A stretch of DNA of 64,000 nucleotides from Haliotis asinina. Its lineage: Eukaryota > Mollusca > Gastropoda > Lepetellida > Haliotidae. The stretch lies in NCBI RefSeq assembly GCF_037392515.1, contig NC_090295.1, forward strand, positions 14,465,001-14,529,000, written 5' to 3'. This document shows positions 9,515 through 63,228 of this stretch, in pieces. The translations under genes were made by a program, and so were the position numbers. The notes beneath the pieces are model-generated. The model made no database searches, had not been told where the DNA came from, and was given only the letters and a program-made list of their open reading frames with translations. Each line of letters opens with the position of its first letter. The first letter of the stretch is position 1.

Positions 9515-9690
9515 ATGAGTGAATGAGTGAGTGTTGAAGCGTGACGCTGCCTGTAGCAATATTCCAGCAATATCAGGAGACACAAGGAATGGCCTTCAAG
9601 TATTTTGTCAACGTGAGGAATCGAACCCCGATCTTCTATGTGGCCGAATACCGCTAAAAACAGCAAGGCTATCCCATTGCGCAAGATTAA
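9515..9690 (-). mobile_element. SINE-A copy
   Basis: Counterpart of the copy at 1084-1270, inside duplicate 2. The reverse complement shows the B-box-like GGTTCGATTCC and a tail beginning TATTGCTGGAATATTGCTAC. Confidence 0.7.
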
Positions 9691-9908
9691 GCAAGCTCAA
9701 CTTGGACCAGTTTGTGACTTGCCTACAGGTAAAATTGGATCGCGGAATTTGCTATTGATAATTTTGAACAATACAAGCAAGTAAGCAGACAGGAACATAT
9801 TTAGTGCGGCAGAGTACCAAAAAATAATACTAAGTCTAAATCTACTTCGACTGCAATGCTGTTAATAAATTCCAAATGTAAACATCATCATTGAAACGAT
9901 TATAATAT

Positions 9909-15900: not shown

Positions 15901-18900
15901 TGGTGTGGTTGGCATCCATGAATCATGAGGTACGGTTGGCATCCATATATCACATGGTATGTTGACATCCATGAATCACGACATTTGGTTGGCATCCATA
16001 CATCACATGGTATGTTGACATCCATGAATCATGACATTTGGTTGGCATCCATACATCACATGGTATGTTGACATCCATGAATCATGACATTTGGTTGGCA
16101 TCCATGAATCATGAGGTATGGTTGGCATCCATGAATCATGTTTGGCATTCATATATCACATGGTGTCTTGTAAAATGCATTGACAGACCTCCATATGTTT
16201 AACCATTAAGCATCAAGTGAACAAAACCTGTAATCACCATGGTTACGCTTACAGCGAAGAAATCATCAATTCGCAGCTGCCATAACCTACACCCGTAACT
16301 TCTACATGGTGACTTGTCCTGGGGAAAAGCACAGTACAGGGGGCTTCATCTACAACTTGCTGTGTGAAGGCATAAAAAATGGCTCTTTCTCCCCGCATGT
16401 CCTTGGCTTCCATAATAGCTTCTACTGGCGCCGCATCATTGTGGAAGAGGTTGCTAACAGACATCCATCATCGGAAATTGCTTTGATTGGCCTGAGGATG
16501 TATATCTATCGGATCGTTCTACCAACTCACAAGCATCAGGTTACAGAACATGGCCGATCAGACTACAGGGACTATGAATACACCAGGGTAAGTGATTGTC
16601 AGTGAGATGCCTTTGATTTGGGGAATGTGAGATGAATGTGTGACCCATCATCTTACTGGCAACCAAGGATAAGTTGAGCACCTACCTTACAATGGACTTG
16701 AATTATGATGTAGGAGTGCCTCCCATGGTGATCAAAGGATGTTGTCTGGGATCAAGTGCAGTGCGATGGGTGAAGCATGAGAATTTTATGAGCATATCAT
16801 ATAAGTCATATGCAGCTACACAGGGAATCAATGTCATTGTTGTGCACTACCCTATATCTACTCTCCCTTTCACAGACAAAATGGCTTTGCTAATTGCTGT
16901 GCACTGCCTGCATCTGATAAAAATGTTCCCTGCACTGGTCCAACTTATCTTTGTTTGCCAGTAGGTGCTGCAATCCAATTGCAAGTTGCCTCCTTTGGGT
17001 GCCAGAAACCTATTATTATAGATTTTAAATGCCAGATTGGCCCAATCATTTTTCAAGGTTTGTCGCCAACATGCCCTTGCTTATGAGTTTCCCTAGAGCA
17101 GTGAATGACTGAGAACTTTCTTCAAAATTAAGTGGATGTACTGTGATATACCGAAAAAAGAGGCACCAGTGGTCAGATTGTCATTGTCTCTGTAGTCATC
17201 AGAAGTTGTTGGTATGGTAATGTGTGGACACTGCTACTCATCTAGTACGAGATACATTCACTGATAAGTATGACTTTTGATAGTCATCGGGGAAAGTCTA
17301 TTTCTTGAATTGCATTGTTATTTTCAGGATTGCTGTTAGTAGTATTCCTTACTGCTTGAATGTGCTTGAATGTTAATTGTCACAATAACATGCGATTGTA
17401 TTTCAAATTAACGCATCCAGAAGAGAGACTCCTTGAAACGCAAGCTACTCTCCGAAGAACATATGAATTCATTCAGTCTTTTGATGAAAGTTGCTTAAGT
17501 GTCAGAAGGTCCAAATGTGTGTTGGGCATCTTGTAAGCTGATAACACTTAAAAACAAAGAAGGTCCAAAGTAATAAATGTTCGACATGATATTTATTCTC
17601 TATCCTTCAGATTAATGCAGCAGACCACAGGATGATTCCTTCAATCAACCAAATAAAGCCTCAGGAAATATTTAAGAATCTGAGGCTCTTTGATCACATC
17701 ATGTCCCATCAGGAACCACAGGGTGAGTGCCCAGTAGTGAAGAATCTGCTTCAAAGTTCTGTACATTTACCTCCATGGCCAGACTTCCAAGGAAACTTTT
17801 CATAAATTAACATCATTCATAGTACTTGAGGGGTGGCAGGGTAGTCTGGTGGTTAGAAGTGTTTGCCTGGCAAGCCTAAGACCCATGTTCGATTCCACAC
17901 ATGGCTACATGGGTGAAGTCCATTTCTGATGTTCCTGCCATGATATTGGAATATTGTTAAAGTGGCGTGAAACTTTACTCACTCACTAACTGATATTTCT
18001 TGACTTTCCCAAGTTCTGCATTCCAATGGTTTGTTTTACATTTTTGAAGAGCTGTTGTTTTTTTTATCTAAATACAAATCTCTGTCATTCTTTACTAAAA
18101 TGTTCCACATATGCATCAAGATAATCAAAAAAGAATCTAAACAATCTTTGGAAGTTTTCAGCTCAAAGGTCAAGGTTCTAAAATAATGATGCTGTTGATG
18201 ACTGGATAGTCTGGTCCAGACTTGACTGTTTACAGACTATCGCCATAGTGGAATATTGCTGAGTGTAGTTTTAAACAAAACTAGAAGTAATGTTTTCATC
18301 CTGGAAATGGCCGGTTGTAACAAAATATGTTTCGTGATTTGAAATAGCATTGAAGGGTTGATTCTGGTTCTGCAAGTACATGCAAATACATGAAGAATAT
18401 TCTTTTCCAGCGTTCCCAAAGACCTGGTTTGATCGATATGGAAGAAAAAATGGTTTCATCTGTTACATCCTACGTTATTTTCTTATTCAAAACTGGGACT
18501 ACAACCTGCGCATATCTGAAAATGAGTTCCTTGCTTTGGTTGCCATAGCGTTCGGCAAGACAAATGAAACATGGTACCAAAGTCTAGGTCTGAGGCCTAC
18601 CCCAAGATGTGTTACTGTTGGCAACTGGTTCCAGGTAATGTATGCATTATTGTATTGTTGTACATGGAATTATGGGTATGACCTTGAAGTCTTGGAATTG
18701 TGGGTATGACCTTGAAGTCTTTGTTATGTATGTGCTGAAACCTGTTCTGGGTAATCAGCCATTCAGTTCGTTAGAGTTGAACTGAGGGTTTAAGAATTAG
18801 AGTTACCTCCCCTTCATTGTCTCAACAAAGACATGTCATTTTTTCATTCTGCTATTAGTAATAACATAACTGTTTGAAGTACAATAACCACATATTTTAT

Positions 18901-25869: not shown

Positions 25870-28224
25870 ATGGCGGCGTCCCATGAAAGCATGGAGAGCG
25901 ACGAGGCGAAAGACGACAACAGAGAAAGTAAACCGATCATTCCGGGATATGCTGACATCAATGATTATTCACAGGTATGCAGTTTTAGTAGATACCCAAA
26001 ATAGCATTTACATGGGGAGGGGTGCCTCTTTTTCTTATGTCTACCATTAGTTCGGTGCAAAACCTTAACTCCTCGAAACGTCACTGATTTCATGTAAGAA
26101 GTTTCTGTATTCAGATGATGCGACGTTTCGATGCAGATTATTGTCAAGCTGGTATGAGTAAGGTGGAAAAGAGAGTAATACATACACAGTACTTACGTAC
26201 CTAACAACTAAGACATTAATTTGGACAGCTTGTCCTTATATTACTCCCACTCAAAAGATTATTTGCCACACAAAGAAATCACTGATTTCAGCAAGAGAGC
26301 AGTTTACAACAGTTGACTGTTGAGTTGCTTGACTCAGACTGCCAAGACTGACCTGTCCTGACAAAAGTCGACTGCCTATGCATTGATGTTCAATTCAAAT
26401 CAACTCATCACATCTATTACCTGCGTGATCCTTATGTTTTTTGAGTGAGGTTGCCGTTGGGTACATAACATCTGAAAAATAATCCATTACCATATTAGGA
26501 AACTAGTTTCTAGTTCGAGAATATGAAGACTACCCACTTGTAGAAAGGTAAAGAATTTGCTGAGGGCCACAATTGAAAAAAGTCAAAGGGGCCATAGACT
26601 CAAGTCGATAAGACCATAGCTGAAAAAAACCCCATTATGTCATACAAACCAATGTGTGTTTAATTATACTAATATTTGTTATTACTTGTTTTAACATAAT
26701 TCATGTGTAGATAGCAACGGAAGTACTAATTTATAGTGGGATCATCATACACTCAATAGTTGAAATGGATCTGAAGTGTACAAATTTGATGCGACGATAT
26801 ATTATGATAAGGTCATTGAATTTGAAATGTTCGTCTTGTACAGAATTTAAAGCTACTGAACCAGTCACAACTAAAGGATGAGGACTACTGCTCGATGTAT
26901 AAGAAGTATAAGAAGCTATACCGAAATGTCGCATCATAGAAATAAAGAAGTTGTTATCCACAAAGTATTGCACTTTTCTATTATGTATCAGCTTCTAAAA
27001 TAGTTGACTATACTACTGTTGATTTTGTTTTCAGTACTGACTACTTGTGATCCTTACACAAACATTTGTATGGTATAAAGTAAACACTTCATACAACACT
27101 GAGGATATGTAGATTGAATTGGAACTGTTGCAAAAACATGAAATAAAATTCTTTTAATCTTGGCCCCTTTGACTTTTTAAGTTTTGGCCCTTTTATCCTT
27201 TGGCCCTTTTGACCTGTTCCCATTTTCCCATTTGATGCTTGTTATTGGTGAAAGTGCCTGTGGTCCCAAGATATGGATGTGAATACCTAAAACATGAAAA
27301 AAAAAACATTGTTCCTACACAACATATGATACAGAGAACTATGGTTATAATATAACAGCCGAAAGGGACGTCTAATGTTAGTTTTTAAATACCAGTTGCA
27401 GTTTTTTCACCTGATCTAAAAACAGTTAGCCTTGAAAAGAAACAACCCCTAACCCTTGTTTGTTTTGTTATGAATACTGTGAATATCTTCAGAAAGAATT
27501 GAAACTTAGTCTAAAAGTGCTGATTTCAAGAATTTGATGTGATAGACGTTCTGAATCACATACTGCACAACACTAGGCAAGACTCCATCATGGAATTTGT
27601 AAACAAGTATTTGATATTTGATCTGCCATAGTATCTGAACATGTGAGAAGTACACAGGCTATAATGGTTATATGCAGCTCATCCGATCTGGAACCCAGTG
27701 TTCATGGACATGCTTTTGGGAGTCAACTTCAGTTTAGAATTTTCATGAAGACATCAACTGTAATTGTATAATAACTACTCTCTCTCTCTCTCTCTCTCTC
27801 AACTACCCACCTCACCCACAGGCACCCCCCCAGTTACACACCCCTCTACCCACAACATGGAAAAAAGCAATAACACCAACACCCCCTGACTGAATTCGAG
27901 ACATGTATTTCAACATGTGCTTATGAATCATGAGCCAGGCAATAAAGGAGTCCAAATATTAGGATGATCAAAAGTCTATTGGTAGAGAATTGAAGCTACC
28001 AAAGTTCTGGTGACATTTGGCTAGGTAGGCCCAGAATCATTCTAATTCTGTATAGTATATGAACGAACCATTACTCTGTCCATTTTTCAGACAGTCCTTA
28101 AAAGTGTTCTTCAAGCCACACGGTCCTCAAACAGCCTGCCGACAGGTGATGACTATGACTTCTACTCTACATACAGATCTGTCAAGGATGTGCTGGACAT
28201 TGAGGGCAAGAGAATACTTCAGCT
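25870..28224 (+). CDS. EXOSC10: EXOSC10 exons 1-2 (PMC2NT start)
   Basis: Exon 1 begins ATGGCGGCG and encodes the acidic start followed by [11 protein letters not shown]. Exon 2 encodes [30 protein letters not shown] and GKRILQ, the PMC2NT region that binds the cofactor C1D/Rrp47 in relatives. Exon 2 ends in CT with the donor GTAAGC, so the split leucine codon is completed by the first base of exon 3, across the Polinton-bearing intron. Confidence 0.95.
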
Positions 28225-31200
28225 GTAAGCCTTGCTTGTTATAATTCATTTCAAAGTTATTTTATTCATGAATACATTACCTAACAGGTATCTTATGTTT
28301 GGAAGTCGCTACTAAACTGAGACTCTGTCATTTACATCCCATAAAGATGCGGGTTAGCATTGATATTCAGTGGTCCATGCTTACTGAAAAAGGTGACAAA
28401 TGGGATCAGGTGTTCTGGCTCGCTGATGCAGTTGACACGTCATCGTATCACAACTGATACACAATCATATATTGGTGCTCATGCAGTTGATCACAGGATT
28501 GTCTGGTCCAGATTCGATTAATTACAAATCACCGATATATAGCTGTACTAGCTGGGATGTTGCCAAGTGCAGCATAAAACTGAACTCATTCACTCATCTT
28601 CAAACAATAAGACACTGTAACCGGATAGGTCTGGCATAAATTCTTTGTTTATGTTCTTCGTCAGTCTAAGTGAACTTAGTCTCAGTACTTTCCGTTACAC
28701 TCCACTACTGAGACTGACAAAACCTTGTAGGAGGTTGCATCAGGTAACCTTTCAGCTACTTGTGATAATCTGATCAAACACGAGAATGTTGAACGGATTT
28801 AACCAATCAGACAACGGCTGTTGTTTACGGTTTGGTGGGATCGCTAGTCACTGACACTGATCCCTCAATAAACGAAAATCTGCATAGTTTAAAAGACAGG
28901 TATCTAACCTGTAGTATATATGCTTAGTTCTTTCTGATGACATGGTTACCATTAGCTGATATTTCTGCTAGCTTACATCTTGAATATTGACAAAAATGCA
29001 TTCAGAATCATTCAGGTAGTAGTATATACAATGGGGGTTTTAAAACACTTTCAAAAAAAGTCTCTACAAAGCCTTATTTAGTAAATAAGGCTTTGGTTGG
29101 GTCCTTAGCTCTTGCTACTATTACCCCTACTACTTAACGTGTGTTGGAGGTAACACTGTGCCGTACGGTACGATCAATAATTCTTCTCTTACAAACCCCC
29201 TACCCGGCCCATCCCTCAAGTAGTATAAGTTAGGTTCGTCGGCTTTCATATCCACTTTATCTATGTTGTAAGTTTTGACTGACCATATAGGATCGGTGGC
29301 CCGCTTACGGCTATCACCCTCGTGTTCCCCCGGCTGGTATAGATACCTCACTAGGGCCCTATCTGGTATCTGTTTCTCCTTCCCACGCAATGGAGCGGCC
29401 GACTCTGCAACTATTGATTTTAGTTTGATAGCGTCTGCCGGTTTCTTACCGGTGAGACGGGTGACTTCATGGTTGATTGCCGACACCACCTTGGGTAACC
29501 TCGTGACCCATTCAGTCGATCGTTTTCCAGGGGTGGTCATCTCCCTAGCATACTGATGGCCGAACAAGCGCTCAGCCAAAGTCCTATTAAATCTTTTAAC
29601 TATGGCTTGGCTGCGATGGGCTCCGGCCGTGCCACGCCTGACCTTTGTATCGTGTTTGGCTAGCAGTTGTGACACGGCACCCATGAACTCCCGTCCGGGG
29701 TCAACTTGCAGCTCTGTTGGCCACGTCAGCGGGCTGCGTTTGTATATGCGTTCGAATCCTCTGGCTACCTGGGCCGAATCTTTCGTGGTCAAGGGTTCGG
29801 CTTCCTTGTAACGACTGGCTACGTCCACTACGGTTAAGGCATACTTGTACCTCTTGTCGTGGGGTAGGAACAGTAGGTCTGCCTGGTGAACGCTATTAGG
29901 TATGTTAATACCGAACCTCCTTCTAGGCACGTAGCGTGGTGCCGGCAAATAGATCTGCCACAGGGCTTGTTTTTCAAGCCACGCTTTGGCTTCCTCCGGG
30001 GGTACTCGCGCTATTTTAGCTAGCTTATCTACTGCGCTAGCTCCTTTCCAGTACCCACGCGGGCTGTAGTAAATAGCCTCAAATTTTTTCATGTCCATAC
30101 GCGTATGTGTTTATCCCATCAATAGCTATCCAAAGTTTCGTGTCCATAGGCGACAGGGACGTCTTGCTTATAGTCAGTCCGTATATCTTATGTCCATCAC
30201 TTCTAAGTGTGTTCATTTTATGCCTAAAGGTACGGGTCTTGAACAGGGCTTCCTTGAATCGTGTTTGATGTGTTGTTTCACCACATACTTCTTAACCCCC
30301 TTAGCCTTCCGGATCTCACTATTGTCGGTTTTCAGTATGGAGTACATCTTAGGTCTCAAACCTATGTACTCGGCTATGGGCGTGCCAGCACACTCGTCCT
30401 TCATCTTACCTAGGACCTTTTTATTTACCGTACTGTGTATGGTATGGGTCTTAGGGTAGTCGCTGGTGTCGTATAAATCGAGGTGTTTTTTCATGTCCTC
30501 GTACACGTCCTCGGTTCGAATCTCCATCAGCAGGGAATCCGTGTCAGTGTACAGCACTTCACACCTGTCGCCGTACTGTTTCTTGAGCTCGTTGTAGTAA
30601 AAGTCGTACATCAGGTGTTTGGATAAATCGAGGATGCTCATCCCCACGTAAACAGGCCGGTTGAATTTTATGTGGCTTTTCTTCATGTGTAGGGCAACCA
30701 GGTTGTCTGTGAATATCTTACTACGGTTGAATGCCGGACTGGCTATCAATCTCCTGAGCTTGTCTTCCTCACTCGACCGAACCAGCTTCACGGTCACGCG
30801 TTTCCTCAGGTTCTCCATAGTCTTACCAAACACCGAGTTGTTCATGAGCTTGTAGAGATTTTTCTCAAAATCACTGGTGGCTTTTTTTCGTAGGTCTGTG
30901 TTCATTCTGATGTAGGGCTCCATCCATGGGCTCTGGTCGAACATGAGCACCCTGTGTATTTTGGTCAGCCTCATACCCAACGACAGGTACAGCTGTAGGT
31001 TGCGATAGTGAACGATGTACTTGGTCTTATTCATTAAGTTAGGCATGAGTTTTTCAACGTCTGTCACACGCCCACCTAACAAGTTATGTTGGTACTCAGA
31101 CATCCAGTCTGGGTTAACCCTCATACGTTCGGGGGCCAGGGGGTAGCTGTTGTGTGATGTGTGTAATTCCTTGGTATACTCTAAGTCAACCTCGAGGATA

Positions 31201-34200
31201 TAACCTTTGTTCGAATCTGGTGCAACCCCCATAACATCAACGTGGGGTACCCATTCGAATCCCCCTGTAGGTAGATACTGGCTCATGGCCCAGCCGTACA
31301 GGTTGTTTGCGTCGAGGTAGAGAATGTGATTGGTTGGCTTGTTAGGATCGTAACCTTTCACGTATTGATTATTTGCTTTCGCGTATCGTTTGGATGCCAT
31401 GGAAATCCCACCTCGCAAGCCTTTCTCAATGAATAGGTGCATGTCGTAATCTGTGAGCAATTCCAAATTAACTCCGGTCTTTTTAAGCAAGGCGTCCCAC
31501 GACAGACCTGGGCTGGTGTAATACCATGCGGGGTCGAGTTTATACTGCTTGAAACACGTTCGCCTAAACGTCTCAAACACGTCGGCTAACAGCAGTACAT
31601 CTGTCCTCAAGTACAGGTCGTGATAATCACCCAGGTTCTTACAACCCAGTTTATTCCATACGTTAGTCGCGTGCGAGTAATCATCTCGTGAGACGGACGC
31701 CTCATTCAGCTTGCTATAAAAGCAGTCAATAGGGGGTAGTCTGGTCTCGGTGAACTTGACCCAGCTATCCATGTACTCATAGGGGTACACACCCTTCCTC
31801 ATAAGCAGGGGTCTAGTCTCAGCGTCTGTGTATCGATCGGTGATAGGGAAGGTATTGTTGGCCTTGACCAGACTGTCGAGTGACGACAGGAGGAACTGAA
31901 ACGAGTCAATGAACCTAAGTCCGTTTAAGCTGAAGGAGATGTATCTCTCCATGTTGTTGGGGATGCACGTTATATTACCATCGATTTTCGCGATGGCCTG
32001 CATGATCAAGTGTGAGTCGTACCCTCTCAAGTTGTGAAAGACAACGGGGATGTTTATTGTCTTAGGGTTGATTTTAAGCTTGAGGTTGCACGCGCTGTGA
32101 GCGGCGCCTCTATACTTACCAGTTATGTGGCAGTGATCTCTCACCGAATCACCGTTAAGTGGTGAGTCACACACGTGACAGTTAGTGCTACTAGCGTGAG
32201 CTAGCCTATCGACTCGGGTCATACGCATGGGAGCGATTCTATACAATGCATTCCTAATAATTTTTTCTTCCTCCTGCAAACACTTTAGAAACCTTTCAGC
32301 CGCGTCAGGGCCCCTATACACTACCGGAGCTTTCGTTTCCCCGTCACAACGGACGACAATGTATCCAAACCCACAGGCTTTATGCTCTTGTGTTTTGTGG
32401 GTGATGGGAACCTCGCCGGCGGCACCACTGGGGGAATCCCCCACCACCAAGGCTTCGAAGTCGGCGTATATGATATAAGGCACAGACATTTGGTTCTTGT
32501 GGTTACCAAATTTTAGGATATTATCACCTTCCTTAGGCATGTCGACTCGTATGGCCGTCTGCCCCACACCTTGGCAATCCTCCCGGTGGGATTCTAATAA
32601 ATCAGCTCGTGTGAAGCCATGTAGGCATCGTTCACAGAAGTGGGTCTTTTCTCTGTGTGCCGATTGGTCATACAACAGCCTGCTAAAGTGTTTTATCCAT
32701 GTGTAGTGATACTTGTCACCTCGCTGGATCATGAATATATTGATAACTTGGCGATCCTTCACCGGGCTGACCCTGTGTACTATTGTTGTGTTACCTTCGT
32801 GCCCAAAGACATTTATAGCCAGATTATTCTGTTTTTCTACTTTAGTGATCTGGGATATGGGGGTGGGTTCATCTATACCATCCCAGTTGAGCCCATCATC
32901 CTGAGGATAATTAGAAGACCTGTTCGGATTAGTGTCAGCTGGAAATAAGGCTGACCTGATAGCTAACCTCAGGCAATCGTTTCCTCTATTCTTAACGTTT
33001 ACTATGGCATGTTTGTTCCTATAGTAGGGGGGCAAGGCTAGGTATGACCCGCCTCTGAATGGCACGTAGTTAGCTATGTCTAGATAGACATTATCGATTT
33101 TATCTACAGCCCACCCGGACCCCAAGTGTGTGTAGCGTTCTAGGTATTCTCGTATCTGCTGAAAACTGGTATCGATTGATGCGTCAATGGTCTCTGTATG
33201 TGTGACGACCTCTTGTTTACCTCGGAAGTAAGGCTGAACATACTCATCCTGCTTATCGAGCGACATTTTCACTGTGATCTGAAACTTGATACTTCCTAGG
33301 TTATTTAGTTCCTGGTTGACCTTATCAGCTATCAGAGGCTTGATATCTGTGATGTCTATGTTTCTATCAACGTGCATGCGCCAACCTCTCAAATAGTTGC
33401 CTACAGCGCGCTCAGTGCGCACGAACTGTAGGTCAATAGCTCTATTCTGTCGTAATAATTCTACAAGCTGTGGTTTTCTCATACGGGAATACCCGCCTAA
33501 ACCCAAATCGTGTGCCTCGGCTTTCAGTTGTTTTACAGTGGGAGGTTTTGCTACGGGGTATGTGATAACAATGCGGTTAACCCGGCTCTCCCCAGGTTTG
33601 AATAACCCGTGTATCCAAGCTGTTTTGCTTGAGCTTTTAATTGTTTTACCGTAGGAGGGGCTTCTAAACCTAGTAATCTCAACAATGCTGACTTCCGCAT
33701 TCGAGAATACCCGATCACACCTCTCTGTTTTGCGACCCGCTTAAGCTCGCGTACAGTAGTCATAGTGTTTACACCTAAGAGAACCAATGTCTAATTGGTT
33801 CACAGTAAAGGGAGGTAACCCTTGATAAAAAATATGTGGCTGTTGGATATAGTGTTCCTTGTGCATGTATTCCTGTATATGAGTAAAACATTTATTTGGA
33901 GTCTATCTTGAGCAGTCGCCTACGTTCTTTTATGTAGCCCTTTTTATTCTCGTAGATGAGTTGATGTCTGACTACGTTCGCTCCGTGAGCTTTACATAGA
34001 CAGTAGTGTCCTTTAACCCCGATACCACACACAGAACACGTGTAGTTAGGACTTCCCATATGGAAACAACAGAACCCCTGATTCCTGCATTTCCTACCAC
34101 AGGCCTCGGTCTTCCCCATAAGTATGTATTCGCATCGGTATGGAGCGGGTCTCATGTTTACTTATATAGGTATTTAATTTAATTGCTTCGCAACCAACGC

Positions 34201-37200
34201 AGTAGCTGCTATACCCAACACTATGAAGCCCAGTTCACGATTCATTTGTCCCTTGGATGGTGTGTAGTACTGAGCGAGTGTGGGTTTATTGAGCGGTTCC
34301 AATCGTTTACCAGTTAGTAGGTAGTATTCTTTCATTGCTTCATCGACATCGTTGAATGTTTGAACGGCATGGTTTTCACGCTGGAGTTGTTCGTTAATAA
34401 AATCGATCCTCTGGAGGCGTTTTTTAGCGTACTCGGCCTGTGCCTTTTGTAAGTTCTCAGTAGCGAGATCGTGCCGCTTCCTTTCTTCCTGTATTTCAGC
34501 CGCGTGGTCATCTCGTAGTTTCGAGAAGAGGAAATTACTCCCGGAAAATGCCAGGGCATTCACTAACGCCCCACCGACCATCATAGCTATCGTGGCCATC
34601 CTATATTTATTTCATTATATTTTCAGGTATTATCCCTTGTTTTACTAGGATGTCTTTTGTGGCCATCGCCATACCAAGGTTCATTATGAGCATACCCATA
34701 TCCTGCAGGTTGAAATCTAGCTTGATAGTTGGTTGTTTAAGCACCATTTTAGTCAACCGAGCGTACCCTACGGCTAGACTGGCGACCACTGTGGCGTGGT
34801 ATGCGTCGTTGACGAACGTTTTCCCCTCAGACATTATGTATATATAAAAATATTTAAATTATAACATGATATGCGGGTCGACAGTGGGGGATACCACCTC
34901 ACTGTTGGGGGGTACCACCTCACTGTGGGAGGGTACTCCCACGTATAACCATGTTATAACCACGGCAGCACCTACAGCCAACAACAGTCGGGGGTTGATA
35001 ATTTTATGTTGGTTACACCACCGTTTTTTACCGGCAGCTACTCTCTTAGGATTCTTCTGCCTGGTTACTGTTGGGGGTTCCTGTGTCACTTCCCCCACTG
35101 GTTCCTGTGAAGGGGTCACTTCCCCCACTGGTTCCCTGGTCACTTCCCTCACTTCGGGAGCAGTATCCATCTATACTATTATTATTATTTTTTCTCTCAA
35201 ATTGGCAATGCTTTGCCATGATAATCGCCGCCGTCACTGGAGCCAACAACATGCCATATTTGTGGTACAGCTCGCAGCTGATAGAGCTCACGGCGTGTTC
35301 GATAAAAGGGTCTTTCTCGAGGTCCTCCCACAGGTAAAGTCGGCGCTCTGGTGGAATGGGAAGGAAGTATGACACAATACCGGTGTATATCTGGGTCATA
35401 GCCGATCCTATTGTCTTTGTCATTTCTGCTCCGAGCCGGGACTCGTATCTAGCGTACAGCTTATCGATTTCTTCGGCTGACATTTTGTGAATTTTATCCG
35501 GAGTGTAGTCTCCAAAGTAATGTTTGGCTTTGCCGCCAACAGCCAACGCCACCAGTTTCTCTCGCTTATCATCAGTGGGGGAACCCTCCACCAATAATTG
35601 TTCGAGCAATTCCTCACACTCCATCTTATAATATAACAAGTAAGATTTAGTTTTAACTATATAATACCCGATGCAGACAAAACACAGAGAAATGAAGGTT
35701 AAGTTGCACACGACAAACACTTCAAATATCATAGCTATACTTAGCATTTGCTTAGCTTTAGCTTAGCTTTGCTTAACTTTAGCTTAGCTTTGCTTAGCTT
35801 TGCTAAGCTTTGCTTAGCTTTAGCACACCCTATATGCTACTGGTTGGTCGGTCTTGAGCACGAGCTTAGCGTGTTTAGTTTCAGCGAGCTGTTTCTTCAC
35901 CCGTTCCCGTTCTAATTTGCTCATCACATCGTTCTCTCTCAAACACTCCTCGAACGAATCCCTGTCCTTGCAGTGAAATAAGGCCACCCATCGCGTCTGC
36001 TCCCTGAGGTCTTTCAACACCGAGTTGAACTTCTGCGTTAGCACCCAGACGCTGTGATTTGCATGCCGGCCGGAGAAGGCCAGGTACGATAGCATGTCTC
36101 TCTTTTTTGTTATCTCGCGATTAGCGCTGCAGTCGTCCAGTATAAACAGCGTCGGTTCCCCTTTAAATTTCTCGTGAAGAGCTTTCAACCAGTCCTGCAG
36201 GCGTGTTCCAGGGTCGATTTTGTGTACGTCCGGGTCCGTCATCACCCAAGGTCGCGCGTACGTTTTATTCATGCTCAGAGTAGGGCACATGATAACGATG
36301 TTATCGAACACATCCTTGTAGTAACCCTCCAACATATCCAACACGAAAACGGTCTTCCCACAGCCAGTCTGCCCGCACACTATGGCGCAGTGTGGGTCAG
36401 TGGGGAGGTGGAGGTCAGTAGATGGCTTGCACGAATCTCCCATTGTCTATATTAAGTTGCGCGTCCATAATAACGTACAGATATAATTTCAACTTACCAG
36501 CGGGTTGAGCCTTCTTAGTAATCTGGATGGTTATCCCTTCGCTGCCGTTATCTATACGGCGCCCGCTACCGTGCAGTTTATCATCATCCGTGGATCGCAT
36601 GTCCAACCATAGGGCGTACTTGGTGGTCAGGTATTCACCGATCTGCACGGAGCCGAGGTCCAGGTCCTTTGTTATGTAATCCCCCACTGGTAGCTTTTTT
36701 ATCTCATCCCACTGCTGGTGTGGTCTCATACCATGACTGAACAGCTGGTTGGGCACGCCCTCGATGGTCACTTCCACCTTTTCAATCTCGGGGTTGAAAA
36801 ACTTCTCGCTGTCCCTCCGGAATGGCTCGTAATCCTCCACGACCAGGATACCTTTCATCGATCGCGCCGGCACGTTCAGGTTGATATTCCACACAGTGTC
36901 GCTCTTATCTCGCACGACTGACCTATGCCTCAGTACGCGATCGTACAGGATAGCCATCTTCCCAGAGTACTGGCTTCGAACCTGCCTGGCCAGCTCCGGG
37001 CTAGTGACCATGTCGAACTCCAGAGAGATGTTGTCTATGGCATAACTGGCCTCATCACCGTTCGGCGTACGCACTACTTTGCTATAGTCGTTAAACGTGA
37101 GCTCGTATTCGAGCCTATCACCCAGCGCGGCCTGGTAAAACGGCGCGTGTCCCGTGAGCAACTCGAAGTCGAGCGGCACGCAGAATCGATTCCCGTATGC

Positions 37201-40200
37201 TCGAGCGATGGCCTTTTCACCGTCCGATAGCTTGTCTAGCTGGTCTGGCGTGAAGGCATACCCTATGCGCGACCGGGTTGATTTGCTGATACCCTGGTAC
37301 ACATCATTGACTCGTTCTCCCTCGCTTTTCCAGAGATCCCCGTAGCAGTGAAACACGTCGCTGTCGTCGATACTCAGCACCTCGTTACCGCTGATCTTGA
37401 CGGTCGTTTTCTTGATGATAGCTCGACCCACGTTCCGCACTAGCTCGCGTTTGTCGTTGTCGGAGGTCAACGTGATATTGAACGCCAGTCGAACAGTGCC
37501 TGGTACAATGAGGTCATTCTCACCAAGGTTTGGAAATCTAACCAGCAGAGTTTGATTCTGGTCTATCTTGCTGGGATTGTTGGTGATGGTCACCGACTGG
37601 CGCACGGCTCTGGCTCCTAATGGCTCTCTCAATCTTCTGAAAGGATCTAATTTTCTGCCGTACATTGTTATATATAAATGAAATATATTTTTAATACTAA
37701 ATAATGGCTGAAGACATACCTATGGATGATATGTGGGACGATAGTGCCCAGGCATTCAATGATGACCAGGAGACCTCATTCTCGCAAGGTGGCTCACTCA
37801 TGGAGGGCGCCGTCGACGATTATTACAACGCAGTTGAAAATAAATCCAAACTCAAGCCGTTGGGTAGGAACTATTCCAGGTTTACCCTCGATAGCAATGG
37901 CACGCTGCGTTTGAAGGTTCACCCGGAGATCGATCTCGTGCATAAACGCACGAGAGAACCGCTTGCTTTATCAACACTGAGCAGTCGACATGGGAGTAAC
38001 TTTGTCCGCGATGAACTAGGCTTCATAGATTACGGTGGCGCGCGACCGAGGCAGTATCCTCCAAAGTTAGTTCAAAGTCTGGAAGGCATCAGGGACGCCA
38101 CATCGGATCAAAACATGACTTATGATATTGAAAAGGTGTTGGCCGACTACAAGAACAAGCCCTTCCCGGGTCTCGAAATTACCTTTCGGGAACTGAAGGG
38201 GTTGGACCTGTTGATGCAAACCATTCATGGTCAGCTCTGGAAAAGCACGGCCAAAATGAGTGAGATAGACGACCACATCGCCTATGAAAAGGAAAAACTC
38301 GGTGAAACTGAGGACGAGTCTATGAAAGCCACCATCGAGGAACGAATACGTAATTTGGAAGAGAAAAGGCAGGTCTGGTTGGAGACAGCATCCGGCTACA
38401 AAGAAAAGCTTCGATCCCAGACCAACCGTGTGCGGGAAACCATCAATCAAGTCCTCCACCGAGACACCACGTTAGCAGACAGGATTCGGATATTGTTCCG
38501 GGAGCAAGGGATCACCATCGCCAGCATTCTGACTGCATTAGGTTTCATCATATCAACCCTGGTGGTGTCACTGACAGGGGGTACTGTGGGAGTTCCCCCC
38601 ACACCCCCCACACCTGCCGGCGGCGGTGGGGTTAAAGACTGGATAAAAAAACTCGGGGAAGGCCTAGCTAAACTGGCTGGTAAAGCCGCCGAAGCCCTCC
38701 CAGGCATCCTGGGTAGCATCGTCTCGTGGTTGTTGGGCGCTCTGGCTAAAACTGCCACGTGGCTCAGTCAAAACCTGTGGGCAGCCATCGTCGCCGTGGC
38801 GGGTCTGGTGTACGTAGCGGCTAAGAAATTTTTAACCAAATAAGCCCCAAAGCTACCCCACCAACCACCAGGGCCGTTTTATTATCAATATGCTGCTGAT
38901 TGGTGGCCTGAATATGGGTGTGTGTGGGGGGTACCCCCACATGAACTTTAGACTCCGGGGGTGGCGCCACTATACCCGTTTCACGTGGTGGGATGTGTGG
39001 GATATAGGGGGTGTTAATATCGGGGTTGATACCCAACTTTTGATCCGCCGTGGCTATGACTATTTTGTTGTTATAACCCACCACTTTTTTTACTCTCAGT
39101 TGCATATCACTCGGAGCCATGTACAGCCCCACGCCGAACACGTAATTGACGTTCGATCTGGCGTATTCTAACATGTTTTGGTAACGGTCGATGGCCCGCG
39201 GGAGATCAACTGGAGAATTGATAGCATCCTCAACGTTGGCAACGAACTGTTTCTGAGCGTCGTAAGCAGTTCCCTTACCGAGGATGTTGGAACGCGTCAT
39301 CGACTGCGCACCCAACAGCGCCCACACGTACGTTCGAATCGAGTCGTTCAAGCGTATTGTACCAGCACGAGTGAATTCTTTCGATGTTTTTGAGATCATT
39401 TTAGTCCAGGCTGTGGCTGCATCAGGATTGGTTTGCTTTATACAGCTGACATGGATCTTTTCATTCGTTGTGGGGCCTGTAAATGTATGACGTTTTGGGT
39501 TGTATGTACCATCTGCAGAACCGGCCATATATGTTCCGGACCTGTAGAAGTACACGAGAACTATACCGAGACCATGGTTCACACCAGGAAGGCGAAAGTC
39601 TTTATTCGTTGGAATCTCAAACTCCCCACAAACACGTTCATAAGCGCGTTTATCATAGGGGTTATTCGTCATACTCCACGCTTTATCTTGGGGAAGAGGA
39701 GCACTTATTTCCTTCAATATTCGTCTCGTTTGATAATAAATATGAAACAAAATGACTGCCTTACTCAGTTCGTCTATACCGTAGTCTAGTGTCACACCCG
39801 ACCCTGTCGTCGCACACCACACAGCAAAGTTGAGTTGGTTCTGCCAAAACTGCATTGGGTTTTGATTCCAGTTTACCACCGCCTGCGCGTTATTAACGGT
39901 CACGATATAGTTTTCAAAGATATTAATAAAGGTTGCTTTAAACCCTGTACTACCTACCACCACGATTTTCAAGTGTGCTAAGTCCATATTATAATATATA
40001 AATTATATATTATAATATGTACATAACACTTCCAGGAATAACGAGCGGTGAGGCCGTTCAGCTGACGCACGCGATCGATAACACGTCAGGTCAACTCGAA
40101 GTCGCACTCTGCGATATTACCTACCTACCGCAATGGACTAACATCAACGCCAGCAACAATAAGCTGTTCGTCAGTGGAACTCGCAGCCAGATAACTGACG

Positions 40201-43200
40201 GCTACTACAGCGTGTGCTCTCTAAACGACGAGGTCTTCAAACCCCTGGGAGCCGAACTCAAGATGAACGACTCAAACGGCACAGTGGTGTTAATCAACAA
40301 CGGAAGAACCTCATTGAGGCTCGGCCGACCATTAGCGAGGATACTCGGTATGTCTCCTGACGAGATAAAACCAACAACAACCGTCACAGGCACGAAGTTA
40401 CCCGATCTAGTACCGTACCGAGAGCTGTACATTCATCTCGGTCAGGTGAGCACAACGTACAACATTCAAGGAGGTCACCCTTCCACTATACTGAGAGCAG
40501 TGCCGGTGAAAACTGAGAAATACAACGACGGTAGAACCGAGTCGTTTTCACCACGGCAGTATAAGAGATTAACCCAGGGCAACATACCTGAGCTGATAAT
40601 ATCGGTGTTAGATATAAATCATAATCCTGTAAATATAGGATACCTCAGCTTAACGCTTCATGTAAAATGACCAGCGCACAAGGGCCCGGAGTGAAAAAAT
40701 GCGTCAATATCGGGATCTCCGACCTCGGAGACACGCGCGGTTTCGACGCTCCCGGAGTAGATGGTAAATCGTACGCCTTTCAACTGAAAAACAACATTTA
40801 CAAACGCGTTGAAGTCACCTCCGGTGGAACCCTAAGTGATATAGTAGATACCACAAGAGCAACAGTCAACACTAAGTACGCCCTTGTCAACACTGGTAAT
40901 AACTGGATAATATACCCATCGTTCGGGGGTAAACTGTTCGACTTAGACGATGTTGAGAGCACTACCGTCGCCCGAAACAAGCCATATATGCTCGTCTTCA
41001 CCGAAGATGACAAGTGGGTGTTGTTACCCGATAACGACTGGTTTCTCAATATTAGACTCGTCTCCCCCTACGTGTTCACGGATAACAAAGACAACCACCT
41101 AAACAAAGTCGTGAACAATGGAACCCTGCTCGTGGCTTACGTCCCAACTCAGAGACGTAGCATAGTCGTCAGCCCACTCGACACTATGGCAGCCCACATG
41201 CTATCGAGTAAACCGGCCATACAAAACGTGACATTACAGTTGGTGTCTGAATTCGAAGGCGTGGTCAGTATACTAGAGAGTCTACCGGCAAACTCAACAC
41301 TGATCATCAAAGTCTACCTAGGGGAACCATCGGGGAATGATGTCGAGATCGTGAAGGGAATCAAACTCGGGTGGGGGAAACGACACCAGTATCAAGTTTG
41401 CAACGTTTACGTGCGGGTGGGTGTCGGCTCCAACACCAGTCTGCAGGGGGTCAACGTGATCGTGGAAAACAAGATATCACTAACCAAGATCTTCCTGCCT
41501 GACAACATACACTTCATGGGTATGAAGTTCACCCCTGAATTATTATCAGAAAACCAGTTGGAAATTATATCGTAATAGTATAATAATGACCAGTCATCGT
41601 CCCAACACTACGCTTAACGACCTAGGAGATACGGAGGGATTCGATCAGCCTGGTGAGGAAGACACCTTATATATCCTGCACTTCAAAGACAACGTGTACA
41701 GACGGGTGTCGTTATCAGATTTTAAAGAGCCCAAATGGCTGATCAACTTAACACTCACCTCACCTTATATCATAATAGACGCAGATACGGGGGGATATAT
41801 CTCTAAGATTAGGAACAACGGTATCTTGGTCGTGGATTTCATTCCGGAGAAGGAATTAGTATACATAGAATCTATTGGTCACGAAAAAAAGGGGTTAAGG
41901 GCTTGGCCAAACAATAAATTAATATTTAGCAATAATACTTATGGCATAGGTTTTGATATATTCCCCCCTTTCACACTCATCATAGAAGTCTTCTTTTATT
42001 TAAACAATGAAAACACCTCAAGAGTACACCAAATTTTACCCGGGGTGTCAATACACTGGTTTGACGAACACATAGACCAATATTGTCGTATTGTTATACA
42101 ACGGGATACCACGGGTCCTATAAACCACTTAATAAGCCTCAGTGGGTTTTTTATTACAACAGGAAATTCTATTAGACTCTCACCTATTACCCTGACTAAT
42201 AGTCTAGATCTTGTAGACTTCAAATTCATTAATAGACTATTAACTGAAACCCAATTAAAATATCTTTCAAAATATATATTATAGGATGGGTCTGTACCCA
42301 GTCGTAGAGGAAGTAGCGAAGACGCTGGAAACCGTAGATGGGTTCCGCTTGAGGCAGTTATGTGACGTGAAACGCCAACTAGAACAAGACCGTGACACGC
42401 GGAAAGCACTATATAAAAAGTACCATAGAGCTTTCAATATCTTGGACGGGGCTGACACTACCCTTATGACAACCAGCATGGGACTAGGGGCGGCAGGTGT
42501 TGGATTGTTAGCTACCATCGTGGCTACACCTATAGTGCTAGGTATTGAAATAACAGCTGGGGTGGCAGGGGTGTTAGGGTTGGCACTTAAGTTGATATCA
42601 CGCAGACTGCATCGTAAGGCATTGAAACACGACGAGATCAGGGTTCTGGCCGAAGCAAAGCTCAACACAGTAAGTGGGCGTATTTCCACGGCACTCTCTG
42701 ATAGTAAGATCTCAGAAGAGGAGATTTTCGTTCAATCCTCTCTGAACTCACAAAATATAACGGAATGAAACAAGATATTCGATCCAAGTCTCGTAAGTCT
42801 GCTATCAGCGAGGACGAGAAAAAAAAGTACATAGAACAGGGGATACAAAAAGCCCAGCAAGCCTTTATTACGTACACCAAAGAGATCATAGGCGGTTCAC
42901 GTTAAACTGTTTCATCGATATAAACGTGATATAGGCACAGTGTTACCTCCAACACACGTTAAGTAGTAGGGGTAATAGTAGCAAGAGCTAAGGGCCCAAC
43001 CAAAGCCTTATTTAGTAAATAAGGCTTTGTAGAGACTTTTCTTGAAAGTGTTTTAAAACCCCCATTGTATATACTACTCAGGTACAAATCTTTCTGGGGT
43101 AAAAGCTCAAAAGGTAAGTGCAAATGTCCTTTTTCGCAATTTGGTGAGCTGTTTTCTGATTGGTCAGTCTGAAAGGTTACCTGATACCACCTCCTACTAG

Positions 43201-43632
43201 GTTTTGTTAGACTCAGTAGTGGATTGTAATGAAAAGTACTGAGACTAAGTTTACTCAAACTGTGTTCTTCATGTTTGTGATACATATATTTCAGGATTGA
43301 GAGCATCTTGCGGCAACAGAATGTCAAGGCAAAAATATCTACCAACAGTGACGCTATTGAGCTTGAGGACAAGTTTGATGCTGTCATGGATGCCAATGAT
43401 CAGATTCTTGAGAGGGTTGTAAGCATTGAAAGGGACTTTCTACATTACCTTTTTCATGTTACTTAAAATAACCTTTTTCAACACTTATTCATGACTAATG
43501 TTTTGGAACATTTAGCCTACTTGACAGAATAAGTATAAAATATCAATTTTTTTCATAAAAATTACATACTTCTGATCTGGGAAGTCAGTTTATCTTGCAT
43601 TGTTATTCAATGAGTTGCAAGTGGCTACATGA

Positions 43633-46600: not shown

Positions 46601-49600
46601 GGTAACAAGGTGAAATAATAATTTTTTTTGTTTAAACAGACAGTTTGCGGTTACCAGAGAAAGTCACACCACTTGATATGGAGAGTCCTAATTTTGTGTA
46701 AGTTGAGTGTTGTGACTTTGTGATTGTGAGCTCATCATAATCGAGTAGAAATTACATTGTACCCGGTCATTTCTGATTAGGGGCAAAGAAGGTGTTACTG
46801 CTCACCACTAAAAACATAAAGAAAATCAGGGTTGGGGAAATATGTTTTTTGTGTATGGTTTTGGGTGTGGGGTCTTTCCACTAACATTTCAGCAAGAATG
46901 GGCTTGTCATGACTGCACAGTTAGTAAGACATTTCTGGTTTATCCTGATAATTGTTTGGGTCTGCTTTTATACAAATTAAAAGTATTTTAATTATGTACT
47001 AGCGTGGGCCATCTTGATTCAAAATAACATTTGCGGTATACATAAAATATTTTCAAGTGTGGTCAGACTTATTTTTTGAATCATTGATTTTACAGTTTTT
47101 ATTTGTAGTGTTTAATATTGTGGGTGAATGGAATTACTGAATGTTTTTTTTTTCATTTCAGGTGATTCCCATGAAAAATGTTTAAGAAATTCTTGTAAAT
47201 GTTATAAAAAATAATCACAGCATAGTAACCTAATTTTAAAACTTTTTGAATGATTGGAATGGATTGAAGATGACTATACTGAAATGTTGTGAAAGAGTAC
47301 TTGTTGACAAATACATAATTTAACGAACAATACACCCCCCACACTCCCCAAAACACCCCCCACAACTTATTTGTTTTTCCAATGTGCTTTATTACAGCTA
47401 TCCACATCCTTATCAATATGAACTTGATCACCTTCAGTATAACCCCCAGCAAGTGATGGAGACAGAAGCACAGGTATGTGTTTGTTAGCATTCAGTGTCT
47501 CAGGAGAGAAATATTGAGTGGTTCTTTGAAACAGCATAGAACTTACAGAATTTACAGATCAAAACAGTGGGTTCTGTACTTCCCATTTGCAGAAAATATG
47601 TCATTATTGGTAGCTCTTGCAAAGTTGGTGTTTGAGTGCTGCCAAAAGCGATCCATAGTCACTCCACTCCTTCAGGAGATGATAATTTTGGCAATGGTGA
47701 TATTACCAGTATTACCTTTTGAGATGTTTTATGGACTGTTTGATTAGGCGGGCTAGGGTAGCCTAGTGGTTAAAGTGCCTTGTCACACAGAAGATCTGGA
47801 TTCAATTCCCCACATGGATACAGAGTGTGAAGTCCATTTCTGGTGCCCCCCAGAATGGTGAAAATTGCTGAAAGCGGCGTAAAAACACTCACTCATGCAC
47901 AAACAGTTACCGTTCAGACCTCACATTTATTATGCTTCCAGGAACCTCGTCCAATCGAATCAACTCCCTTGACGGTCATCGATTCTGAGTCAGAGCTGAA
48001 GAGGCTGTGTGATCATCTGAAGACTGTACCAGCGCTTGCAATAGATCTGGAGGTGAGCAGATCACGTGATCAACAGTCACTCATTTCTCCAGTGTTTATA
48101 AACACTTACTTGTTTGGCTGCACGCTCAGTTCACATATTATCAGGACTTTGTCAGTGTTGGTGGTTTTGACATGTTATCTGTGATACATATCACATATGT
48201 TGTACTGTTCAAAATTCTGAATTTAGAAGCTGGTTGATGGTCCTGAAAAAACTGTGCACCCTTGCTCCTGTTGTGCAGGAGTACGGAACATTTGCCCCAA
48301 AGGATGAAACATCAGTTGTTCGATCCCCAGTGACATGATACCATAGATATTGGGAGATAGTACTTATTGCCCAGCTTGGTGCTCAACATTAAGGAGATAA
48401 CACAGGAAATGCTTGGTTTAGAATCAAAATTCTGTGCTTGGTTGGGGGTGTCATTAGTGATTCGATTCCCAGCAGCGTGATACCATAGATATTAGAAAAT
48501 GGTACCTATTGCTCAGCTTGGGGCTCAGCATTAAGGAGATAAAACGGGATATGCAAGTATTCTGTGCTTGGGTGCGTTATTGAAGGTGAGCCTCTGTGTG
48601 ACATATCAGTAAGATTGCTCTGTAAAACTCAGATAATTACAATGAGTCAAGTACTGCATATGTGTTGTACAGGTGCAGTTATCTTAAAATGTACCTGAAG
48701 TGCCATTTCATGTCACTTCTTTGTGTGCTTTGAATGTCAAAACATCACAATGTTTTTCTATTTCAGGCTCACACATACAGGAGCTTTCAAGGGCTGACAT
48801 GCCTGATGCAGGTGTCGACAAGGGAAGAGGACTACATCATTGACACATTGGAGCTCCGACACAGCATGCACATCCTTAATGAAGTGTTCACAGACCCTAA
48901 CATTGTAAAGGTAAGAACTACATTATCGACACCCTGGAGCTCCAACACAACGTTCATCTCCTTAAGGAAGTGTTCACAGACCCTAACATTTAAAGGTAAG
49001 AACTACATCATTGACACCCTGGAGCTCCAACACAATGTTCATCTCCTTAAGGAAGTGTTCACAGACCCTACATTATCGACACCCTGGAGCTCCAACACAA
49101 CGTTCTTCTCCTTAAGGAAGTGTTCACAGACCCTAACATTGTAAAGGTAAGAACTACATCATCGACACCCTGGAGCTAAAACACAACGTTCATCACCTTA
49201 AGGAAGTGTTCACAGACCCTACATCATCGACACCCTGGAGCTCCAACACAACGTTCATCTCCTTGAGGAAGTGTTCACAGACCCCAACATTGTAAAGGTA
49301 AGAACTACATCATCGACACCCTGGAGCTCCAACACAACGTTCATCTCCTTAAGGAAGTGTTCACAGACCCTACATCATCGACACCCTGGAGCTCCAACAC
49401 AACGTTCATCTCCTTGAGGAAGTGTTCACAGACCCCAACATTGTAAAGGTAAGAACTACATCATCGACACCCAGGAGCTCGAACACAACGTTCATCTCCT
49501 TAAGGAAGTGTTCACAGACCCCAACATTGTAAAGGTAAGAACTACTTCATCGACACCCTGGAGCTCCAACACAACGTTCATCTCCTTAAGGAAGTGTTCA

Positions 49601-52600
49601 CAGACCCTACATCATCGACACCTTGGAGCTCCAACACAATGTTCATCTCCTTAAGGAAGTGTTCACAGACCCTACATCATCGACACCCTGGAGCTCCAAC
49701 ACAACGTTCATCTCCTTAAGGAAGTGTTCACAGACCCTAACATTATAACTAAACTATGAAACTACTGTTTGCCTTAAATGATTATTCACTTGTTAAGCAT
49801 ATTTCAACATTTATGAGAACTATCAATAATACCATAAAAGGATAACACACTAATACATTCATTGTTGCCAAGTGATCATAACAATTTATCATTTATATGA
49901 TGACTGTATTTGTATTGTTCCTGTACCACCAATAGTGGTTTGTCAGAATAAATATTGAATTGTAAAGGTAAGGACTACATCACTGACACACATGCTCAAG
50001 AACCAGGTTAGAATTGATCCCATGCTTGTTGTTAGAGGCGACTCACATGATGTGGTGATGAGGCTCACTGACTTGGTTGACACGTCATCATATCCCAACT
50101 GCATAGATCCATGCTTTTGACAACTGAATTGTTTGGTCCAGTTTCGATTATTCACATATCATCACCATACAGCTGGAATATTCCTGATTGCAGTGTGAAA
50201 CAACAAACAACCATCATTGGCACACTGGAGCTATGATAAAACATGCACATCCTCAGAAAAGACTTCACAGTTCCTATGATTCTTGTCAGTTACTTAATGA
50301 TAGCTGTGATGTTATTTTTGATGCTTGAGTATTTAAGAATATTTCCATTGCTGCCATTGGCGAGGTTTACTGATATAAAAAAAATGTGATTGCATGAAGA
50401 AGCTGTAGCATTGCTTTTTCTCACTCAGTCTCTTGTCGTGTCAGATTTTCCATGGTGCTCATTCGGACATTGAGTGGCTTCAACGTGACTTCAACTTGTA
50501 TGTAGTCAACATGTTCGATACAGGAGAGGCAGCTCGGACACTGGAACATTCTAGAGCATCACTGGCTCACTTACTTAATGTGTACTGTCAGGTGACCACA
50601 GACAAGAAATATCAGCTTGCTGATTGGAGGATCAGGTAGGTCATGTGATGTCCTCAGGTAACCAAAACTTGATTGCAGTACACTGAGGCACAGTGAGTAA
50701 AGGTAGAAGTTTTGGTACACAAGTTATAAGCCTTATTCGGTGATATGTTTTTCAAGATATGAAAGACAAGACGAAGTTTGGAAATTATACAGCATCGAGG
50801 ATTATTTGATTTGTTTTGGATAGTCATGTCTGTTTCCTTTTTCAACCCCAGCAACACTTTTTGTGGCTTGTATTAAAATGGACTCTGTCTGTGCATTTGT
50901 GCATCAGTGCACATTTCCCTTTCCTGAGCAGGACTTTAAAATTGTTCTTTATTTCTTCACCAAGAAGCCTAGCCTCATATGGTGGTTTGTATGTGAGGTA
51001 ATACTGTGGACAACATGGACAAGAGGTGTTTATTCCTGTATGTTGTAAAGAAAAATGTTGACATCTCTTTCAGGCCACTGCCAGAGCTTATGTTGAAGTA
51101 TGCGAGGACTGACACACACTACCTGCTCTACATCTATGACAAGATGAAGAATGAACTACTGCAGAAGGGCAATGAACAGAAGAACCTCCTCTACCATGTC
51201 CTGTCAAACAGTGCCCGGATCTGTGCCAAGGTATGACCTGAAAACTGATTGTTTGACTGACGCAACAGTGCCTGATTCTGTAGCAGGGTGTGTCCCGATA
51301 GCTTATTGGCTGGTTGACGTAACAGTGCTTAAATCTCCATGAGGGAAGGTCAGTGAAGATCCTGATAGCTGGTGGGTCCATTGACACAACAGTGCCTAAA
51401 TTCTTCACAGTGAAGGTCCTGATAGCTGACTGGTGAATTAACACAATGCCATCGCACTGACTCCATCAAACAGAAGGTCTTGATAGCTGATTGGTCCATT
51501 GACACAGCAGTGCCTAAATCTCTGCTAGGGAGGGTCATGATAGTAAGTGAAGCTGATTGGTTGAGAGCACAGTATCAGCATCTGTGCCAGGATAGCCTCT
51601 AATTGGCTGTTTGACACAACAGTGCTGACAGTGACACACACTCCAAATGTACTCTATGTAATACTGAATCATTACTTGTAACTGAAGCACCTCTGAACTG
51701 CTGTGACTGTCCCTTCCTAAAAGTTTGTGTATACTCAGGTGTTCCGGAAGCCGTTGTTTGAGGAGAACCAGTACCTGGACCTGTACAGGAAGAGCAAGAA
51801 GCTGTTTAACTCCCAGCAGCTCCAGGCTCTCCGAGATCTCTATGCATGGCGGAACAAGGTGGCCAGACAGGAAGATGAGAGTCCCTGGTAGGTCAAGGTC
51901 ATCACCTAGGGTCATCCACAGGGTAATTCTGTGGTTCAATAGTCCCCATTGAACATAAGAACTGAAAAAAAATTAGCATCAGGGTCTCATACATGCAAGC
52001 AAATTCCAGGTTTAGTAAGACAGAAGTATGGTCCTCAGGCTGGGAGGTCTCTAAATGCATAATAGGCAAAAGCACCTTTTTGCTTAGATCGCTTTGCTGA
52101 GTTGGGGTCAGGAAATAAGGGTACAAATATGAATCTACTATGTATATTAAAGTAACCATTTAGTTCTCACTGTAGCATGTCCTTTGTCACAGGGGTAGCC
52201 TAATGGTTAAAACATTATCTTGTTATTCCAACGACCCCAGTGTAATGAAGGTTCAGTGTTGGGGGAGAGGGATTAGCCCAGTGGTAAAAGTGTTCGGTTA
52301 TCACACCAAAGACCCAGGTTTGATTCCCACATGGGTGCAATGCCTGGGCCTATTTTTGGTGTTTCTGGTACTGCTGGAATACTGCTAAAATTATTGTAAA
52401 ACCATACTCACTCACAAAACAGAGCAGAAAATCAGGTATCTGTGCTGGCAGATGCTGGTATATGTTGCAGGTATGTGTTCCCAAACCACATGCTGCTGCA
52501 GACAACGCAGGTGTTGCCAAGGGAACAGCAGGGTGTGTTGGCATGCTGCCGACCGATCCCTCCCCTCGTCCGACAGAATCTGTCCGAGATTCACAGCATC

Positions 52601-62050: not shown

Positions 62051-63228
62051 GGTTGATAAAACCTTTGGAGAAAGGTGTGTGTGCGTAGATTGTATTTTCT
62101 GAGACTTAGCGTTCGTTCACGCCCCTGTACAGTAGCAATGATCTTCAAAATGACATTACTCCAACCTCACCGCAACAAAAATGGAAAACGAAAGTAGAGT
62201 GGGGAAAACCCACTCTTCGTAAATACCCCTGACAAACGCAGTTACACTTCCTTGTTGGGACAAATTTTGTAGCTAGGTAAGTTCTCTTTACTATCAATCT
62301 GTCTACAACAGGTAGGCAAACACAGTCTTAAAGACTGAAACAATAAGGTAGTGTTTACTGTACAGTCTTACGTCGAACAGTTTGAGAAAGAAAGGTAGAT
62401 ATACCGTTCCATACGGTCCTATATGGAACTGTTCGCAATTGCTTTGTGTGTGTCACACTGATAGCGATACCACCACGAACCGATGCTGAACTGATGCTTT
62501 CAAGATATTTAATTGTTGTTGTACAAAACTTACGGCAAGGTATAGTCAACGAAAACTAGCCCTCACTTCACAGTGACGGAAACCTGCCTTTGTTCTAAAT
62601 ATAGAATTTCGGCGACGATGAAATCTTTCTACTCCATGCTGACCTCGGAATGAAATGTTTTAAAAAAGTGCTGTTTAGCTGATAGTAAATCAACATTTAG
62701 CGTGTTAATAATGTTGGTATCATTTGGATTCTCTGTGAAAATGTTTTATTTGCAAATATTGATTACTTAATGCGCGTCCCGGGTTGCTAAAGGCCTATTC
62801 TACCCCGGGGCCTTCACGGATCTGTTTTAAGAAACCCATGAGTGATAGATACAAGATTGACAAAAAACAAGATATTTTTCTGAAAGTGAAAACGTTAAAT
62901 TCTGTCAAAAGTGCATCTTGCATCTTGCTCTTGTAGACCAGTAGTACACTCCCAGCCATCGGTGTAACACCATATCAAACTTCTCAAGCAAATATGTACT
63001 ACGGCAGATAACATCTAAGTGTCATTTCATCCACCATGTGCTAGTCATTTTTCATATTTACTGTATAATTAATGTTGTTTGCGACAAAATATTTTAATTC
63101 ACTTGACATCTTCCTGTCCCAAGTGAGCTCTCAGGGAAATGATGTACAACATCGACACTGTCCTGAAATAGTCTGTACAGAACAAAACAGACCATACACA
63201 GCAAATGAACTTAACTGGCGTACAAGAT
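62051..63228. other. Intergenic stretch, nothing recognised
   Basis: AT-rich, with no open frame that resembles a protein. It has a local imperfect palindrome near 62403-62435 (CCGTTCCATACGGTCCTATATGGAAC). The SINE-B end at 62775-62825 is the only known repeat. Confidence 0.5.

Follow-up and report, generated by a model that had tools for sequence, protein, structure and literature searches.

Nested insertion of a Polinton in a MITE-like element within intron 2 of EXOSC10 in the abalone Haliotis asinina

Vertebrate Mavericks (Polintons) are reported to end in the motif (AGT)2//(ACT)2 and, when intact, to be flanked by 6-bp target duplications (excerpts of PMC8097293), and duplications of 5–6 bp are given for Maverick/Polinton elements and mavirus in excerpts of PMC8547959. 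Mobile elements within mobile elements are known from related systems, namely Ngaro retrotransposons in endogenous virophages and retroelements in polinton-like viruses (excerpts of PMC12220804 and PMC8547959). PMC10294476 finds Mutator-like elements, Mavericks and hAT elements across all mollusc genomes that it analysed, and states that miniature inverted-repeat transposable elements (MITEs) account for a considerable share of the genome in bivalves; on these findings, each part of the locus that we describe here is of a common kind. The locus lies in a stretch of 64,000 nucleotides of Haliotis asinina (assembly GCF_037392515.1, contig NC_090295.1, positions 14,465,001 to 14,529,000; hereafter the window), and all conclusions below concern this single locus in this 64-kb window. 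In it, a Polinton sits in a MITE-like element that itself sits in intron 2 of EXOSC10—a three-level nesting that had been proposed in a sequence-only reading of the window and that is borne out by two separate target duplications, one nested within the other. As in the Ngaro–virophage and retroelement–polinton-like virus cases, one mobile element lies within another and virus-like members are involved; the virus-like element is the recipient there, whereas here it is the inserted element. Among the papers listed in literature searches on Polintons/Mavericks, MITEs, nesting, Haliotis and molluscs, no title or abstract opening describes this locus.

The inner element begins with AGTAGT and ends with ACTACT, the motif of vertebrate Mavericks, which supports its identity as a Polinton. 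Its long terminal inverted repeats (TIRs) are identical at 142 of 145 positions, and the 5-bp sequence CAGGT abuts both ends with all five bases matching. The presence of an rve integrase, a DNA polymerase, an A32-like ATPase and a putative capsid protein further aligns it with Polintons. Outside the Polinton ends lies a second pair of inverted sequences, 94 nt each, of which 83 positions are identical without gaps when the left arm is aligned with the right arm in reverse complement. Between the flanking parts of the intron (28226–29017 and 43084–43294), the highest score of an ungapped inverted match was 61, compared with a maximum of 12 in 30 shuffles, so the inverted arms described in the sequence-only reading stand, as do their coordinates except that the right arm begins at 43169 rather than 43168. 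The outer element ends in CAG...CTG, and a 10-bp repeat with one mismatch (TGTTCTTCGT on the left and TGTTCTTCAT on the right) directly abuts these ends; a match of at least 9 of 10 bases at this fixed place has a chance of about 5e-5. The direct repeat beyond the arms had earlier been given as 8 bp; the repeat is present, and the 8-bp TGTTCTTC found beyond both arms is a portion of the 10-bp repeat. Subtracting the Polinton and one CAGGT leaves an element of 535 bp, in agreement with the size of 0.53 kb first estimated.

The order of the two insertions follows from their duplications: the CAGGT duplicated by the Polinton is a piece of MITE sequence, which means that the MITE-like element was already in place, as had been proposed. 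The divergence of the repeats points in the same direction: there are 11 mismatches over the 94 positions of the arms, compared with 3 over the 145 positions of the Polinton TIRs (Fisher p=0.003). We regard two successive and separate transpositions, of the MITE-like element and later of the Polinton, as highly probable. In the first step, a non-autonomous TIR DNA transposon of about 0.53 kb would have entered intron 2 of EXOSC10 a short distance before the splice acceptor, presumably mobilized by an enzyme encoded elsewhere than in this element. In the second, the Polinton would have entered the interior of the MITE-like element through a Polinton integrase, duplicating CAGGT. The intron may tolerate this load since splice sites and exons are untouched.

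Several observations weigh against this account. The outer duplication carries one mismatch, and only 5 bp are exact beside the Polinton ends, compared with 6 bp in intact vertebrate Mavericks; the inner duplication may also have been 6 bp with one base lost, since both junctions allow the reading TCAGGTA. The comparison of divergence is a weak clock because the MITE arms may already have differed at insertion. A blastn search of the window with the arms revealed no second copy, giving only short matches of 13–38 bases besides the pair itself, and exact arm patterns occurred 0 times in viral contigs and 0 times in prokaryote genome contigs, both poor places to find an abalone MITE.

The outer element resembles a MITE of a TIR DNA transposon in its length of about 0.5 kb, its 94-nt inverted arms, its flanking direct repeat and the absence from its parts alone of any mechanically called open reading frame (ORF) of at least 80 amino acids. 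It differs in that one copy is seen here and that its superfamily assignment is a guess, so that membership of a MITE family is suggested by anatomy from a single copy. Target duplications of the Mutator-like superfamily are 8–11 bp long, and the 10-bp duplication suggests that the outer element is perhaps Mutator-like. A minus-strand ORF of 145 amino acids (42959–43396) spans the Polinton TIR, a MITE part and exon 3.

With one arm on either side of the Polinton, the two inverted relative to each other and bordered by a duplication on the outside, the arms could in principle form an outer TIR layer of the Polinton, the whole 14.6 kb having moved together. Inside the arms, however, the Polinton has complete ends of its own that bear the known motif and are flanked by a separate duplication, CAGGT; as this duplication falls between arm and Polinton, the arms are part of the recipient. 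The stretches from arm to Polinton are also unequal (262 and 85 nt, with one CAGGT counted on the left), and a local comparison of the two in inverted orientation gave at best 16 of 18 matching bases, a score that 78 of 500 shuffles reached, so that we do not claim an inward continuation of the inverted repeat. We thus consider a single 14.6-kb element very unlikely. A degenerate third arm beside the Polinton site was likewise not found, the scores being reached by 846 and 851 of 1,000 shuffles. Repeats are prone to misassembly in general, and a Polinton misjoined into the intron would be an artefact of this kind; a misjoin would not be expected to produce the small duplications seen at each level, which makes this explanation extremely improbable.

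The assignment of the host gene to EXOSC10 and of the site to its second intron, also made from the sequence alone, holds up on three grounds: GT–AG borders, matches to EXOSC10 of other Haliotis species and an exon 2/3 junction (LQLIESIL) that is the same in EXOSC10 of Haliotis rubra and H. cracherodii. Exons 1–5 are read without a stop. A query of 12 exon pieces joined by hand matched EXOSC10 of H. cracherodii at 86% and that of H. rubra, whose record carries the label LOW QUALITY PROTEIN, at 88%, and the next mollusc among the matches listed after these two stood at 59%. In a search of the PDB, exon 3 alone gave no match and a later exon ranked EXOSC10 first. Between the right end of the MITE-like element and exon 3, the intron continues for 32 bp; under two successive insertions, these would consist of one copy of the outer duplication and old intron sequence including the acceptor.

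As to why the Polinton lies at this site, the sequence-only reading offered two ideas: that hairpins of the MITE attracted the integrase, or that elements collect in a safe intron site. The empty 535-bp element indeed folds well as a single strand (−114.6 versus −51.0 ± 4.7 kcal/mol; 60 shuffles), the fold of the interior by itself is about two standard deviations better than that of shuffled sequence (−39.9 versus −30.8 ± 4.2; 100 shuffles), and each arm contains one copy of TCAGGTA, the 7-mer at the Polinton insertion point, so that either the hairpin or the sequence of the MITE might have guided the integrase. The fold is, however, mostly due to the arms, and the Polinton site is interior, outside the arms, at 352–356 of 535, with pairing probabilities of 0.19–0.62 in its surroundings. 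The shared 7-mer is weak evidence because the two strands of the window together hold 15 copies of TCAGGTA (including the 2 junction copies and the 2 in the arms), and for the related Cafeteria virophages the excerpts of PMC8547959 report no evidence for sequence-specific integration. Attraction by the hairpin is not upheld by these data, and guidance by hairpin or sequence is, in our estimate, about as improbable as joint movement of the 14.6 kb.

The idea that mobile elements collect in EXOSC10 intron 2 as a preferred or safe site draws on a dispersed repeat (28346–28601) in the same intron, the end of which is 50 bp away from the outer duplication of the MITE-like element. This repeat has 12 non-self partial matches in the window at E≤0.01; with partial relatives at several other places, such repeats are common in the window, and a single intron is no measure of preference. 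We hold a preferred site to be slightly less probable still than guidance by the hairpin. Relatives of the repeat lie at about 0.2, 8.4, 8.7, 19.9, 50, 54.9 and 60.1 kb, among other positions. A bolder conjecture, to which we give an equally small chance, is that abalone Polintons favour palindromic non-coding landing pads and that pairing between the arms in the pre-mRNA loops the 14-kb insert out, which would still allow exon 2 to be joined to exon 3; were it true, the MITE would act as a buffer, enabling a host gene to tolerate an insertion the size of a virus. Given the interior site, the weak coincidence of the 7-mer and the report on virophages in the excerpts of PMC8547959, the Polinton insertion was most likely untargeted and may have been retained owing to its location in an intron.

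We also examined the genes of the Polinton, of which 13 ORFs picked by eye cover 89%. Among the first 10 ORFs scanned, three had Pfam matches at E≤0.001: the integrase, the polymerase ORF with its endonuclease VII-like stretch, and the FtsK/A32-type ATPase. PHROG names the 1,097-amino-acid protein a DNA polymerase, a match that does not extend to its class or to protein priming; from knowledge of Polintons, we take it to be of type B. Assignment of the capsid ORF is less direct. Its match to Pfam Capsid_N (E=0.022) fell below the cut-off, one relative among those listed is named major capsid protein (a UniRef cluster from Elysia), and a profile search of PDB sequences gave no capsid and one unrelated match (E=0.19). 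The predicted structure is weak (pLDDT 58.5), and the top Foldseek matches of this model, viral capsid proteins including that of mavirus, had TM-scores of about 0.2 and may serve as a hint only. No protease family was among the Pfam matches of the 14 ORFs scanned, in which the element may differ from described Polintons; a divergent Ulp1-type cysteine protease is possible. In viral contigs, no Polinton relatives with flanks were found by integrase, and an alignment of the capsid yielded 17 pattern-matching stretches, 0 of which were confirmed. Both Polinton TIRs contain a 29-nt palindrome (29067–29095 and 43001–43029).

The integrase is of the rve type, with 3,612 related proteins at E≤0.001, of which 120 were listed. 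It retains D74 and D133, and residue 168 is lysine where the catalytic glutamate is expected. Among the 120 homologues listed, glutamate occupies this site in 113 and lysine in 1; the remaining 6, in which the searched motif was missing, were left out of the comparison. Because lysine replaces the catalytic glutamate—a further difference from described Polintons—the integrase of this copy is probably inactive, and the copy would be unable to integrate by its own enzyme.

Table 1. Features of the nested locus and its host gene (positions counted from the first base of the window).
Feature	Position	Strand	Evidence
Left outer target duplication TGTTCTTCGT	28652-28661	+	9/10 match to 43263-43272
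MITE-like element, left arm	28662-28755	+	83/94 vs reverse complement of right arm
MITE interior, left part	28756-29012	+	Between arm and CAGGT
Polinton target duplication CAGGT, left copy	29013-29017	+	Exact match to 43079-43083
Polinton/Maverick, 14,061 bp, ends AGTAGT...ACTACT	29018-43078	.	TIRs and genes
Polinton left TIR, 145 nt	29018-29162	+	142/145 match
rve integrase ORF, 322 aa	29130-30098	-	PF00665 E=1.6e-10; homologues
DNA polymerase ORF, 1097 aa, endonuclease VII-like stretch	30213-33506	-	PHROG E=1.6e-13; PF02945 E=1.8e-5
A32-like packaging ATPase ORF, 207 aa	35820-36443	-	PF04665 E=1.3e-8
Putative major capsid protein ORF, 416 aa	36415-37665	-	62% identity to UniRef cluster named major capsid protein, Elysia
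Polinton right TIR	42934-43078	-	142/145 match
Polinton target duplication CAGGT, right copy	43079-43083	+	Exact match to 29013-29017
MITE interior, right part	43084-43168	+	Between CAGGT and right arm
MITE-like element, right arm	43169-43262	-	83/94 vs left arm
Right outer target duplication TGTTCTTCAT	43263-43272	+	9/10 match to 28652-28661
EXOSC10 exon 1	25870-25974	+	GT-AG borders
EXOSC10 exon 2	28091-28224	+	GT-AG borders; protein match to Haliotis EXOSC10
EXOSC10 intron 2, 15,070 bp	28225-43294	+	93% is Polinton
EXOSC10 exon 3	43295-43418	+	GT-AG borders; protein match to Haliotis EXOSC10
Dispersed repeat adjoining MITE-like element	28346-28601	.	blastn of left intron part vs window

Elsewhere in the window, a 1.5-kb stretch occurs twice with 87% identity (1–1494 and 8490–9906), and ARAGORN places a tRNA-Lys on the minus strand (9607–9690) inside the second copy; at gathering scores, no Rfam family matched the window. 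Within EXOSC10, repeated units at 48820–49748 resemble part of an exon and its border, apparently a piece of an exon multiplied in tandem. Overlapping self-matches at 15159–16170, 57860–58365 and 63221–63754 appear to be tandem arrays.

The locus is a well-preserved case of ordinary nested transposition. It provides a clear order for two insertions in a single intron, and its CAGGT junctions offer a marker for typing in abalone populations. It also presents a mollusc housekeeping gene that carries a Polinton made up, by length, mostly of open reading frames, the integrase of which is apparently inactive through a substitution in its active site.

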